A stretch of 42,113 nt of DNA from a virus: positions 1 through 42,113 of IMG/VR virus record IMGVR_UViG_3300013006_000058. One strand, given 5' to 3'. Shown one piece after another: positions 18,307-35,890 of the stretch. A program made the position numbers and the translations under genes. Under the pieces are notes generated by a model. That model did not search any database, was not told the DNA's origin, and was given only the letters and a program-made list of their open reading frames with translations. Each line of letters starts with the position of its first letter. Within the stretch, counting starts at the first letter, position 1.

Positions 18307-18383
18307 TGGTAACAGGGGCAGGATTCAAACCTGCGATCTCTGAGTTATGAGCCCAGTGACTTAATCAACTTGTCCACCCTGTT
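18307..18383 (-). tRNA. tRNA-Met (CAT)
   Basis: Complete cloverleaf on the minus strand: acceptor AACAGGG / CCCTGTT with discriminator A and an encoded CCA, a D arm closed by GAC/GTC, anticodon arm CTGGG-CTCATAA-CTCAG with anticodon CAT, and T arm GCAGG-TTTGAAT-CCTGC. The anticodon stem lacks the three G:C pairs of initiators. It is thus elongator Met or, if lysidine-modified, tRNA-Ile for AUA. It lies between holin-like and endolysin genes, on the same strand. Confidence 0.92.
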
Positions 18384-32052: not shown

Positions 32053-32265
32053 TCATGGCTTCACCTCCCTTGAGGCAATTATTCTGTCGGCAAAAATCCA
32101 AATATCCTCAACGCAAAAGCTTTTATCTTTTGCCGCTAACATTCCAGCCAAAGCCTGTCCTGCGAACCAGTCGCGGAGGGACATGCCATTGTAATTTTTA
32201 TCAGCATTATACCCAAGGTTTGGGAAGGCTGGTCCGCCGTCGTTTATTTGTTCTGGTGTGTTCAT
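32053..32265 (-). CDS. Small conserved phage protein with a GMSLRDWFAGQAL motif
   Basis: 70 residues. The pattern NDGGPAFPN followed by GMSLRDWFAGQALAGM is frequent in small phage proteins next to SSB or early genes, mostly of unknown function. The start overlaps the SSB stop (ATGA), so it is translated together with SSB. Helical C-terminus. No activity is known to me. Confidence 0.65.
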   Translation of the reverse strand: MNTPEQINDGGPAFPNLGYNADKNYNGMSLRDWFAGQALAGMLAAKDKSFCVEDIWIFADRIIASREVKP

Positions 32266-32777
32266 GGTTGTGTGTGCAGGAAGTTTTGGAGGTCTTCGTA
32301 TAGCTCAATTCCTGTTCGCCCAAACGGAATGTCATCGCCAGAAGATGGAGTCTCACCAAAGACCTCATCCATCGTCTCCTTGCCCGTCGCATTTCCCACT
32401 CCAGGACGCGGAGCCGGTGCCGCCTCACGCGCACCCCCACCTGCTGCACCCCGTGACTCACCGCAGAACTCCCAATGCTCTACAATATTCAGTGTCTTGC
32501 TGCGTGACTTCTGGGTTGCCTTATCGATCCAGAGCTCCTGTGCTTGGCGGCCATGAATCAATATCGGTCTCCCCTTCACAAAATGCTGCCCAATAGATTC
32601 ACCGGACTTCCCCCAGCATCGGCATTCATGAAACGTCACCTCCTCCTTTTTCTGACCGCTCTCATCGATCCATCGGCGGTTCGTTGCCATCGCAAATTCA
32701 CAGATAGCCGTCCCCTTAGGCGTGTATTTCACCTCAGGATTCCGCGTCAAATTGCCTTTCAGTATAATCGTATTCAT
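32262..32777 (-). CDS. ssb: Single-stranded DNA-binding protein with an internal acidic tip
   Basis: 171 residues. The N-terminal ~110 residues form the SSB OB fold (MNTIILKGNLTRNPEVKYTP, CRCWGKSGESIGQHFVKG). The usual acidic tip, which binds the DNA-repair and replication machinery, is present as GDDIPF at about 147-152, but 19 residues follow it (from GRTGIELYEDL). In most bacterial SSBs these are the last residues. A Gly/Ala-rich linker separates fold and tip. It lies 26 bases after the helicase. It coats single-stranded DNA in replication. Confidence 0.9.
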   Translation of the reverse strand: MNTIILKGNLTRNPEVKYTPKGTAICEFAMATNRRWIDESGQKKEEVTFHECRCWGKSGESIGQHFVKGRPILIHGRQAQELWIDKATQKSRSKTLNIVEHWEFCGESRGAAGGGAREAAPAPRPGVGNATGKETMDEVFGETPSSGDDIPFGRTGIELYEDLQNFLHTQP

Positions 32778-32803: not shown

Positions 32804-34474
32804 TTAATCTTCAAAAACACTGTCCATTTCCATGCGCGCCTTACTCACAGAGTGGCTCGACTTCTCCCGCTTCGGCGTGTGCGTCGAATAACTGCCCATC
32901 TGCCAATCCAGCGGGTTCGTGCTGTTCAGACTCGGCATCCGCGTCGCAAACTTTGTGAATTCTTTCACATACCGCACTTGCAGTTCGGGCGTCGGACCAC
33001 GGCGGTTCTTCCGCACAAATAGCATCGCCTTCTCCTCGTAGTCCTGCCGGGCAAAGCCACCGCTCTCCTCATCATACTTCAACCCATCCGACCACAGCGC
33101 AGGGCTGCGACCACGGCGTGGCTCAATCTGCGACTGCCAAGCCTTCTGCTTATCCTCAGCCAGTCGATGCCACTTCACATACTCATCCTCGCGGTGAATG
33201 AAGATGCAGTGATCCGCATACTGCTCAATCGCCGCGCTTCCTGCAAGATCCGCCAGCACCGGCGGCTTACCAGGGTTCTTGTCACTCTCACGATTCATCT
33301 GCACCAGCAGAAAGATCCCCAGCTTATGCTCCTTCTTCAGGTATTGCAGCGTCTCCATCACCTCCACCAGCCGCATCCGCTCATCCGCCTGCGCCCGGTA
33401 ATCCGCCGACTTCACCAAGTGCAAATGGTCCACCATGATCCACCTGATCCCATGCCGCCGCTTTGCCAACTGCACCTGAGCCCGAAGGTCAGCCGTGCTC
33501 ACCGCAGACGATGCACACACCAGCAGCGGCGACGCCCTTAACTTTTTCGACTGCGTAGCAATCGCGTCATGGTCCCCGCGTGAAAAGTGCCCCGTCACCG
33601 CCTTACTCGTATCCACACCCGCAGGCCCAAGCACCAACCGCGTGTAAAGCTGGTTACTGCTCATCTCGATGCTGAAGATCAAGCCTGGCACATTCTGATC
33701 CACCGCCAAATGGCTAGCGATCGTCCCTGCCATCGCCGTCTTCCCCATCGCCGGTCGTCCAGCGATCACACAAATTTCACCTTCACCGTCATCGATGCCG
33801 TGCAGCGTCTGATCGATCTCATGAATGCCCGTCGTTAAGCCAAGAACCTTGCCGCGATTATCGATCGTCCGTTGCAAATGATCCACCCAAGCATCCACAC
33901 CCGCCTGCGCAATAATCGCCCCCTCACGGCTCTCACCCAGAGCAGCCGACCTCTCCACTAGGCTAAAGATCCGTGACTCCGCCTGGGTAATCATCTCCAC
34001 CACATCCACCGGCCCAGCCTCGCCAATCCTCTGCGCCGCATCCACCGTCTTAGCAGACTCATGGATCAACTGCCTCAGCAGCCACTTATCCTGCACCACC
34101 TTGACGTAATGCGCCGCATTACGCGCCGAAGGCACAAACGTGTAAATGTCCATGATCCCCGCCGCCCCGCCGCATCGCTCCAGCAGCTCCTTACCTTTCA
34201 GAACCTCACCGATCAACACCGGATCCAGCGGCTTATTACCATCCACCAGGCTCAGCATCTCCGCATAAATCGTCCGGTTCCCCTCATGGTAAAACGCATC
34301 AGGCGTCAGCTTACCACGCACCTCCAGCACCCAGCGCTCAGGATCCTGCATCATCGCAGACAGCACACCCTTCTCCGCCTCATCAGAAAACGGCAGCGCC
34401 TTATTCACCCCCGCCAGCAGCTCCTCAGCCCCAGCCTCCTCAAACCGCTTCCGGCCATACACAGACTCACTCAT
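32804..34474 (-). CDS. Replicative DNA helicase, DnaB-like
   Basis: 556 residues. The N-terminal domain (about 30-140) has the DnaB fold, with EAEKGVLSAMMQDPE and the linker helix. The RecA-like domain has Walker A GRPAMGKTAM (about 238), a Walker B-like block ending in VDHLHLV, and the DnaB signature ADLAGSAAIEQYAD (about 415). It unwinds DNA at the fork and would be loaded at the phage origin by the initiator encoded two genes upstream. No phage polymerase gene is seen, so the host polymerase is probably used. Confidence 0.92.
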   Translation of the reverse strand: MSESVYGRKRFEEAGAEELLAGVNKALPFSDEAEKGVLSAMMQDPERWVLEVRGKLTPDAFYHEGNRTIYAEMLSLVDGNKPLDPVLIGEVLKGKELLERCGGAAGIMDIYTFVPSARNAAHYVKVVQDKWLLRQLIHESAKTVDAAQRIGEAGPVDVVEMITQAESRIFSLVERSAALGESREGAIIAQAGVDAWVDHLQRTIDNRGKVLGLTTGIHEIDQTLHGIDDGEGEICVIAGRPAMGKTAMAGTIASHLAVDQNVPGLIFSIEMSSNQLYTRLVLGPAGVDTSKAVTGHFSRGDHDAIATQSKKLRASPLLVCASSAVSTADLRAQVQLAKRRHGIRWIMVDHLHLVKSADYRAQADERMRLVEVMETLQYLKKEHKLGIFLLVQMNRESDKNPGKPPVLADLAGSAAIEQYADHCIFIHREDEYVKWHRLAEDKQKAWQSQIEPRRGRSPALWSDGLKYDEESGGFARQDYEEKAMLFVRKNRRGPTPELQVRYVKEFTKFATRMPSLNSTNPLDWQMGSYSTHTPKREKSSHSVSKARMEMDSVFED

Positions 34475-34716
34475 GGCTGCTCTCCTTTCGCGGCTGAGAT
34501 AAAAAGGTTACGGACAATCTGAGTCGAAGTCCAACTCGACCAGTAGGCGGATTCGATAGCTTCGTCATTAACTTCCAATAACCGCTTAACCGCATCTTGA
34601 AGCTGTTGCTCAAGCCTATTGTGAGCATCGCGCAGCGCCAGCACAACCGCGTCATACTCTCGCTTCTCCACGTATTCGACGAGCTTATCCCCGTCCATCT
34701 GAAGGTAAGTTTTCAT
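34471..34716 (-). CDS. 81-residue helical protein between initiator and helicase
   Basis: Starts MKTYLQMDGDKLVEYVEKRE. Almost all helix, with a possible coiled coil, and coupled to both neighbours by ATGA. Its position between the DUF1376 initiator and the DnaB-like helicase is where many phages keep the helicase loader, though it lacks the ATPase motifs of known loaders and is too short. A small loader or adaptor is the most reasonable guess. Confidence 0.55.
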   Translation of the reverse strand: MKTYLQMDGDKLVEYVEKREYDAVVLALRDAHNRLEQQLQDAVKRLLEVNDEAIESAYWSSWTSTQIVRNLFISAAKGEQP

Positions 34717-35651
34717 ACCAGCTCGCCCCCCTTCTCTTTTCGGCTATCCAGCCAAGCGCGCACCTGTCGCTGGTCCGCCTGTGGCATCAACTCCCAGGCA
34801 GCATAAACCTCCTGCCAGTCATCCCCCCAAAGCTCGACCATCGCCAGCTCCCAGCCGTCTGGAGCCCCCGTCCCCCGGCTCTCAGGAACATCCGCCAGCG
34901 CCGCCTCTTTTTCTTTTTTTTGCCAGCTCAAACCTTGCAATGAACTCATGGGGTTCGTGATCTTCTCCGTGAACAACCCTGCCCAGTTGTTCGACATCGA
35001 AGCCTCCACACTGGCAGCGACCTGTTCTGGGCTGAACCGGAGTTGTTGCGTCAGCAGAGCTTGCCAACCAATCGGCAGATACCCCTTCCTCTGCTCCAGC
35101 TTGTAATCAAACCAACGCCTCAATGGCATTCGGTAAGCCTCAGACACCTCATCAGAAAAGAATGGCTCTGCCAACCTGCCTGACTTCCCCCGGTCACGGG
35201 GGGTAGGGGGTATGGATAAGGATAAGGATATAGGATTACGGAGTGCGCGCGTGCGAGGCATAGCGTCTGCATGTCGTTCGCTTTGCGTTGGCATTGCATC
35301 CGCTATGCGTTCGCATTGCGTTCGCATTGCGGACGAATCCCAGCGGGATAGTGCTGCCTCCTTTGCCTTGCCTCTTTTTTCATGAGCCTTAAACAGTTCA
35401 TGCTCAATGCGTTTCTGCACATATCCCTCAGGGGTTTCCTGAAAGAATTGCTCGATCACGCTTAGCACGGCGTGCTGTTCGTCCTTCGTAAAGGCTGCGC
35501 ACAAGCGAAACAGCATCTTCTCATCAGTTGGCAGTGCGCGTTCAGTGCTGTAACACCAATCCATCAGCACATTGTAAGCTCCGTGTTCAGTTAAACTTAG
35601 CTGCCGCGTGTCTTTGGCATAGTCTCCGAGATGGCGAGTGTAAGTGTGCAT
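34713..35651 (-). CDS. DUF1376-family replication initiator
   Basis: 312 residues from the ATG at 35651 (the frame to 35702 is not used; the start forms TAATG with the previous stop). The N-terminal block (HLGDYAKDTRQLSLTEHGAYNVLMDWCY) matches the YdaU/DUF1376 domain, a winged-helix type found in phage initiators. A Lys-rich linker and a low-complexity stretch follow, and then a helical C-terminal region that may contact the helicase. Residues about 106-132 are encoded by seven 11-bp DNA repeats, the likely origin. So the gene carries its own target, like lambda O. Confidence 0.8.
   Translation of the reverse strand: MHTYTRHLGDYAKDTRQLSLTEHGAYNVLMDWCYSTERALPTDEKMLFRLCAAFTKDEQHAVLSVIEQFFQETPEGYVQKRIEHELFKAHEKRGKAKEAALSRWDSSAMRTQCERIADAMPTQSERHADAMPRTRALRNPISLSLSIPPTPRDRGKSGRLAEPFFSDEVSEAYRMPLRRWFDYKLEQRKGYLPIGWQALLTQQLRFSPEQVAASVEASMSNNWAGLFTEKITNPMSSLQGLSWQKKEKEAALADVPESRGTGAPDGWELAMVELWGDDWQEVYAAWELMPQADQRQVRAWLDSRKEKGGELV
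35258..35334. repeat. ori: Seven 11-bp iterons: putative replication origin
   Basis: Seven head-to-tail units with consensus GCATTGCGTTC start at 35258, 35269, 35280, 35291, 35302, 35313 and 35324. Each is exactly 11 bp, so near one helical turn. The period is not divisible by three, so the repeats are read in shifting frames and cannot be a peptide repeat. A short purine-rich tract made of GGATAA copies (about 35214-35235) lies alongside and may be the unwinding element. Iterons inside an initiator gene are known from lambda-like phages. Confidence 0.75.
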
Positions 35652-35890
35652 TAGCGTTGCCCCTCCTTCATTTGGGCCATTTCCGTCGTAGCCTCTAGGC
35701 ACAGCTCAAAAGCCTGTTTCAGCACAGCCAAGCCCTTCGCCGCGTTACGGCGACCAGACACAAATTTCACATGCTGATCCTGGCGCTGATCAACCCGCAA
35801 GATAGGCCACAGAGTATTGCCTTCTCTGACCTCGCAGACATACACAGCCAGCTCAGTAGGCAGTTCACTTTTTGATTTTAATTCGTTCAT
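35651..35890 (-). CDS. 79-residue protein of unknown function
   Basis: Starts MNELKSKSELPTELAVYVCE at the ATG at 35890 with the CTACTATG context; an alternative ATG at 35914 would overlap the previous gene by 14 bases. Strand-rich middle and a helical end (LAVLKQAFELCLEATTEMAQ). Its stop shares the A with the initiator start (TAATG), so both are made together. Function unknown. Confidence 0.55.
   Translation of the reverse strand: MNELKSKSELPTELAVYVCEVREGNTLWPILRVDQRQDQHVKFVSGRRNAAKGLAVLKQAFELCLEATTEMAQMKEGQR

Follow-up and report, generated by a model that had tools for sequence, protein, structure and literature searches.

How is a run of tandem repeats to be understood when it lies within a protein-coding gene and its period is not a multiple of three? 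The question is raised by a DUF1376 gene, a putative replication initiator, at 34713..35651 on the minus strand of a viral DNA stretch of 42,113 nucleotides (IMG/VR record IMGVR_UViG_3300013006_000058), which in its full length is referred to here as the window.

The Repeat Array and Its Gene

Direct reading of the window sequence gives seven contiguous 11-bp units with zero gaps at 35258..35334, the consensus being GCATTGCGTTC on the plus strand and GAACGCAATGC on the coding (minus) strand. An independent run of TRF called the same array at 35275-35331 with a period of 11, and the column-majority agreement with the consensus (64/77) exceeds both the highest score (51) reached by an array in 60 Markov-shuffled versions of the 42-kb window and that of the next-best array elsewhere in the window itself (47). 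The seven gap-free units reported by the first-pass annotation are thus present, and the rotation of the reading frame that it described is seen across the 11-bp units. Its picture of units repeating a consensus was slightly idealised, the units being non-identical and most deviating by one to a few bases. Judged from the sequence, the repeats are a real element acting at the DNA level.

The encoded protein scores 81.3 bits against PF07120 (E 6.8e-23; gathering cut-off 30.1) and is a clear member of the DUF1376/YdaU “primosomal” proteins, its PHROG matches likewise being labelled “primosomal protein”. The ORF is extendable to a GTG at 35702, and in an alignment the homologues begin at the ATG at 35651. 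AlphaFold2 modelled a confident N-terminal domain (the DUF1376 domain, 35349..35651, minus strand; mean pLDDT 86, core >90), a low-confidence linker, and a helical C-terminal part, with the array falling in the linker, which is predicted to be disordered. The topology of the N-terminal domain, a helical core with a beta hairpin, is read here as a predicted winged helix. A PDB fold search with the domain model returned weak matches throughout (E ≥ 0.4), headed by the winged helix of ORC2 (E 0.43), and a sequence search for solved-structure relatives of the protein found none that was convincing.

Spacer and Microrepeats

Beyond the array, read along the coding strand, come a spacer (CCTCGCACGCGCGCACTCCG...; 35238..35257, minus strand) and then TTATCC-type microrepeats (35214..35237, minus strand), which read as GGATAA on the plus strand. 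The close relatives L005, L006, L004, and L149 (56-88% protein identity) retain the 81-nt array and the repeats that come after it; the array region measures 81 nt in all five close relatives, and the number of TTATCC copies ranges from 0 to 3. The spacer is marked by hyper-conservation of synonymous sites: at codons for the same residue, third positions among the close relatives were identical in 34/35 cases within the 33 nt at 35226-35258, as against 44-62% in the domain and approximately 86% in the array. Alternating GCGCGC is found in the spacer at 35238-35257, where synonymous sites are nearly invariant in the five relatives. One relative (L004, 69%) lies on a contig labelled as a Flavobacteriaceae MAG, and 20 other genomes of that phylum are without DUF1376; it may be a misbinned phage contig.

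The microrepeats are presumed to be a melting or strand-capture element and the counterpart of 7-bp CCANNAA repeats in the wider family, the 6-bp TTATCC version being the form found in the window's clade. The first-pass annotation had remarked that GGATAA repeats adjoin the array and could melt. The repeats are real, but their counterparts in the family are often not AT-rich (CCAGACA, for instance) and hence look sequence-specific, more than merely easy-melting DNA. AT-richness as a general trait of the second element was ruled out, the mean GC being 0.46 and reaching 0.64.

Genomic Neighbourhood

In the window, the DUF1376 gene lies upstream of genes for a DnaB-type replicative helicase (32804..34474, minus strand; Pfam DnaB_C, 3.7e-56) and a single-strand binding protein (32262..32777, minus strand; Pfam SSB, 4e-24). 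Across the window and its relatives, the neighbours of this gene are DnaB, SSB, ATPase, or replication-P-like genes. A lambdoid Pseudomonas phage (L267:39438-43046) has the order Cro-CII-YdaU-primase/helicase, in which the DUF1376 gene, coming after CII, occupies the place of lambda O.

Direct repeats about one helical turn in length also stand end to end in the centromeres of plasmid R1 (parC/ParR) and of the TubR/tubC system. Since contiguous 11-bp repeats in direct orientation typify this class of site, the array might be conceived of as a centromere or nucleoprotein-filament site serving partition instead of replication. The surroundings speak otherwise: a Pfam scan of nine window genes around the array yielded helicase, SSB, and HTH matches among others and neither ParM nor TubZ, the array sits in a gene annotated as primosomal, and the additional repeat element, of 7 bp in most of the family, would be left unexplained. 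With a context of replication in place of a partition NTPase, this reading is highly improbable.

GC skew was dropped as an origin marker for the window, being nearly one-sided and uninformative, with no switch at the array. Comparison of window positions 18000-42000 with named phages gave no near match. A tRNA-Met gene is found on the minus strand at 18307-18383.

Periodicity across the DUF1376 Family

The test set was made up of DUF1376 genes picked by protein similarity alone (IMG/VR loci, named phages, the close relatives, and two further loci), cut to 48 genes at <75% domain identity. DNA self-similarity was measured per lag over the 200 nt after the domain and set against a null of shuffles that preserve the protein while drawing synonymous codons from the same gene. 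The linkers exceeded this null at lags 7 (z 9.6), 11 (z 7.9), 14 (z 4.9), and 22 (z 6.5), none of which is a multiple of three; these z-scores assume independent genes, which related genes only partly are. Smaller excesses were present at lags 4, 5, and 34, and the same test gave no comparable peaks in the N-terminal domain or the next gene. Taken gene by gene at p ≤ 0.05, significance was reached by 20/48 at 11 bp (2.4 expected) and by 37/48 at 7 or 6 bp, with 3/30 at 11 bp and 0/30 at 7 bp in a C-terminal control. The signal was retained in the 25 genes devoid of AATGC/GCATT (lag 11 z 5.5, lag 7 z 6.1). Applied to lambda O, the measure recovered the known in-gene origin, with a strongest lag of 24, in agreement with the 20-24 bp that the annotation puts between the starts of successive iterons, four in all. 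Linker repeats were not significant by the per-gene test in IME285 and Rac ydaU, and no array was found in L168.

Relatives that keep the protein while losing the repeats, which the first-pass annotation had named as evidence against its proposal, proved to be few: 43/48 genes have a significant repeat of either length, and one case whose linker lacks the repeats has its array just upstream. The array is family-wide, not peculiar to the window genome, and the two-part layout is common to most of the related phages examined.

The 11-bp period stays constant among DUF1376 genes while the repeated word varies, as illustrated by GCAATGCGAAC, AACGGACGTTC, AACCCAANNNN, AAACCCAANNN, and GTGCACNNNNN, among others. 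The element downstream most often takes the form of a 7-bp tandem of CCANNAA, for which 35 genes give the consensus CC-A-(A/G)-N-(A/C)-A; in 31 of these 35, CCA occurs three or more times at a 7-bp spacing, in all three frames and at a GC ranging from 0.29 to 0.64. Where both elements are significant, the array precedes the microrepeats in 14/14 genes. This fixed pairing, together with the position of the array in mid-gene and distant from promoter-like sites, argues against an operator for autoregulation or some other regulatory or recombination site, which is very unlikely even though iterons are often autoregulatory as well. Words resembling iterons were also seen inside the region coding for the DUF1376 domain in L031, L009, and L129 (giving peptides such as RMRTHCECI), which suggests a second small cluster.

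A DNA-only query consisting of two window-type units, GCAWWGCGAACGCAWWGCGAAC, was further used against IMG/VR and found in at least 119 stretches, with well under one expected by the author's rough estimate. For 75 of the 80 loci listed, the pair of units falls within a DUF1376 ORF and has the orientation of that ORF. Among the matches listed, it typically lies 15-70 nt past the domain, and its frames in 36 non-redundant cases are distributed 16/12/8. The other five are two truncated genes with a similar linker (L035 and L050), a Lin1244_N (PF14297) gene (L088), a gene with an unnamed N-terminal domain (L074), and L069:5030-5100, where window-type iterons followed by TTTATTTCTTTTC repeats lie between structural genes and apparently outside any conserved gene; the 9.3-kb contig of L069 has no DUF1376 gene. 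Within 565 kb of relatives, 26/28 strong 5x11 arrays fall in the linker.

The displaced array mentioned above belongs to L180, whose DUF1376 linker is short and without repeats. At L180:2185-2320, five units of TGGGTTTNNNN, with CCACTACT repeats after them, form an array in the tail of the preceding ORF, immediately before the DUF1376 start codon. This single case would represent a relocated origin module and is hard to explain by selection on the protein.

Slippage generates tandem repeats and the linker is predicted to be disordered, so neutral slippage, or selection for a repetitive linker protein, might be thought to account for the array with no DNA function at all. Against this stand the recurrence of the same periods above the synonymous null in genes whose words are unrelated, the retention of CCANNAA in all frames, the near-complete third-position conservation of the spacer, and the relocation in L180; such an origin of the repeats is hardly credible and was already strongly disfavoured. 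The claim of the first-pass annotation that selection acts on the DNA is supported, in independent tests, by the synonymous null in 48 relatives, the use of three frames, the changing word at a constant period, and the relocated array. These comparisons demonstrate at the sequence level that the 11-bp units, the short spacer, and the short tandem repeats are selected as DNA across the DUF1376 family, independently of frame and protein sequence.

A Candidate Origin and Its Likely Binder

The array and the adjacent short repeats are probably the replication origin of the phage, lodged where the initiator gene encodes its disordered linker, and bound by the DUF1376 domain. An in-gene iteron origin, lambda-like in logic and with one-turn spacing, would be the best explanation of the layout, and the domain, as a predicted winged helix, is the likely partner of the array. 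In the mechanism proposed, the domain would bind one unit per helical turn, and the 11-bp spacing would align the bound copies on one face of the DNA. The aligned initiator could then strain the duplex and open the 6-7-nt repeats next to the array, and the initiator or a partner might recognise their sequence, in most cases CCANNAA, in single-stranded form, after which the DnaB helicase encoded next door (or a loader in relatives) would be placed at the opened repeats.

The identity of the binder should nevertheless be weighed against findings in other protein families. An 11/22-bp phase, with the DUF1376-type words GCAWWGC, GTTSAAC, and AACCSAA, is also found among 25 non-redundant relatives of L074 and 6 of L088, and in both families (L224-L265 and L217-L223) 5-bp purine microrepeats at lag 5 come after the array. 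Such sharing points either to a common grammar or to origin cassettes having been exchanged between protein families, and it also means that the array may have a binder other than the DUF1376 domain. The array could be an origin bound by a host factor or another phage protein, with the DUF1376 protein serving as a primosome adaptor or helicase loader, for which the recurrence of these words in Lin1244_N and unnamed-domain genes and the “primosomal protein” label of PHROG can be cited. However, the word differs widely between DUF1376 phages, unlike the sites of a conserved host protein, and the domain is itself a predicted winged helix; an outside binder, though the foremost of the alternatives, is on these grounds unlikely, and binding by the DUF1376 domain is preferred.

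A wider generalisation is put forward with more reserve, as somewhat favoured: 11-bp iterons with an interchangeable word and short single-strand-type repeats (7-bp CCANNAA or 5-bp GAAGA/AAAGT) may form a common origin grammar hidden in the initiator-gene linkers of no fewer than three families of phage proteins (DUF1376, Lin1244_N, and the unnamed one), such that origins could be read from phage genomes.

Relation to Known Origins

Vibrio chromosome II offers a partial parallel, with 11-12-bp recognition units for RctB at its origin; the RctB iterons are non-contiguous and outside the initiator gene, and the protein is unrelated. Lambda provides a known precedent for an origin within an initiator gene: iterons and then an AT-rich tract lie in the middle of gene O, with the helicase-loading gene next (PMC7466680). 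The window resembles lambda in arrangement only, having in-gene iterons, a second element presumed to melt, and a downstream helicase or loader gene. The lambda units are annotated as 18 bp with starts 20-24 bp apart (two turns), whereas those of the window are 11 bp, contiguous, and spaced by one turn, and most DUF1376 relatives have the 7-bp CCANNAA element instead of a plain AT tract. Homology of the DUF1376 domain to lambda O is unsupported (hhalign probability 0.1), the window protein having no Pfam match to Phage_rep_O (PF04492), which lambda O itself matches at 5.7e-36.

The two-part 11-bp/7-bp layout in DUF1376 genes has apparently not been described before. In a literature search that left most subscription journals outside, so that an earlier description is possible, neither a link between DUF1376 and a replication origin nor one-turn contiguous iterons with 7-bp CCANNAA in DUF1376 genes was found. 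The Rac prophage, which carries ydaU, has been described with an active oriJ (PMC3945230), and the literature searched gave no placement of oriJ relative to ydaU.

Should the proposal hold, a widespread phage “domain of unknown function” would gain the function of an origin-binding initiator, and the replication origin of many uncharacterised phages and prophages could be located by rule from the sequence. It would also supply natural initiator/iteron pairs, with differing words but one geometry, well suited for testing origin recognition and melting and for asking what part the 7-nt CCANNAA repeat plays when the duplex opens.

A plasmid with DUF1376 as its only initiator was also sought, and the two records examined turned out to be a plasmid that also carries RepM and a lambdoid phage genome. 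On the Acinetobacter plasmid pSWBY1 (L266:20629-22262), a YdaU gene and an ATPase gene lie near RepM together with AACCCA-type words and CCATTAACC repeats, and this region is possibly a second replication module.
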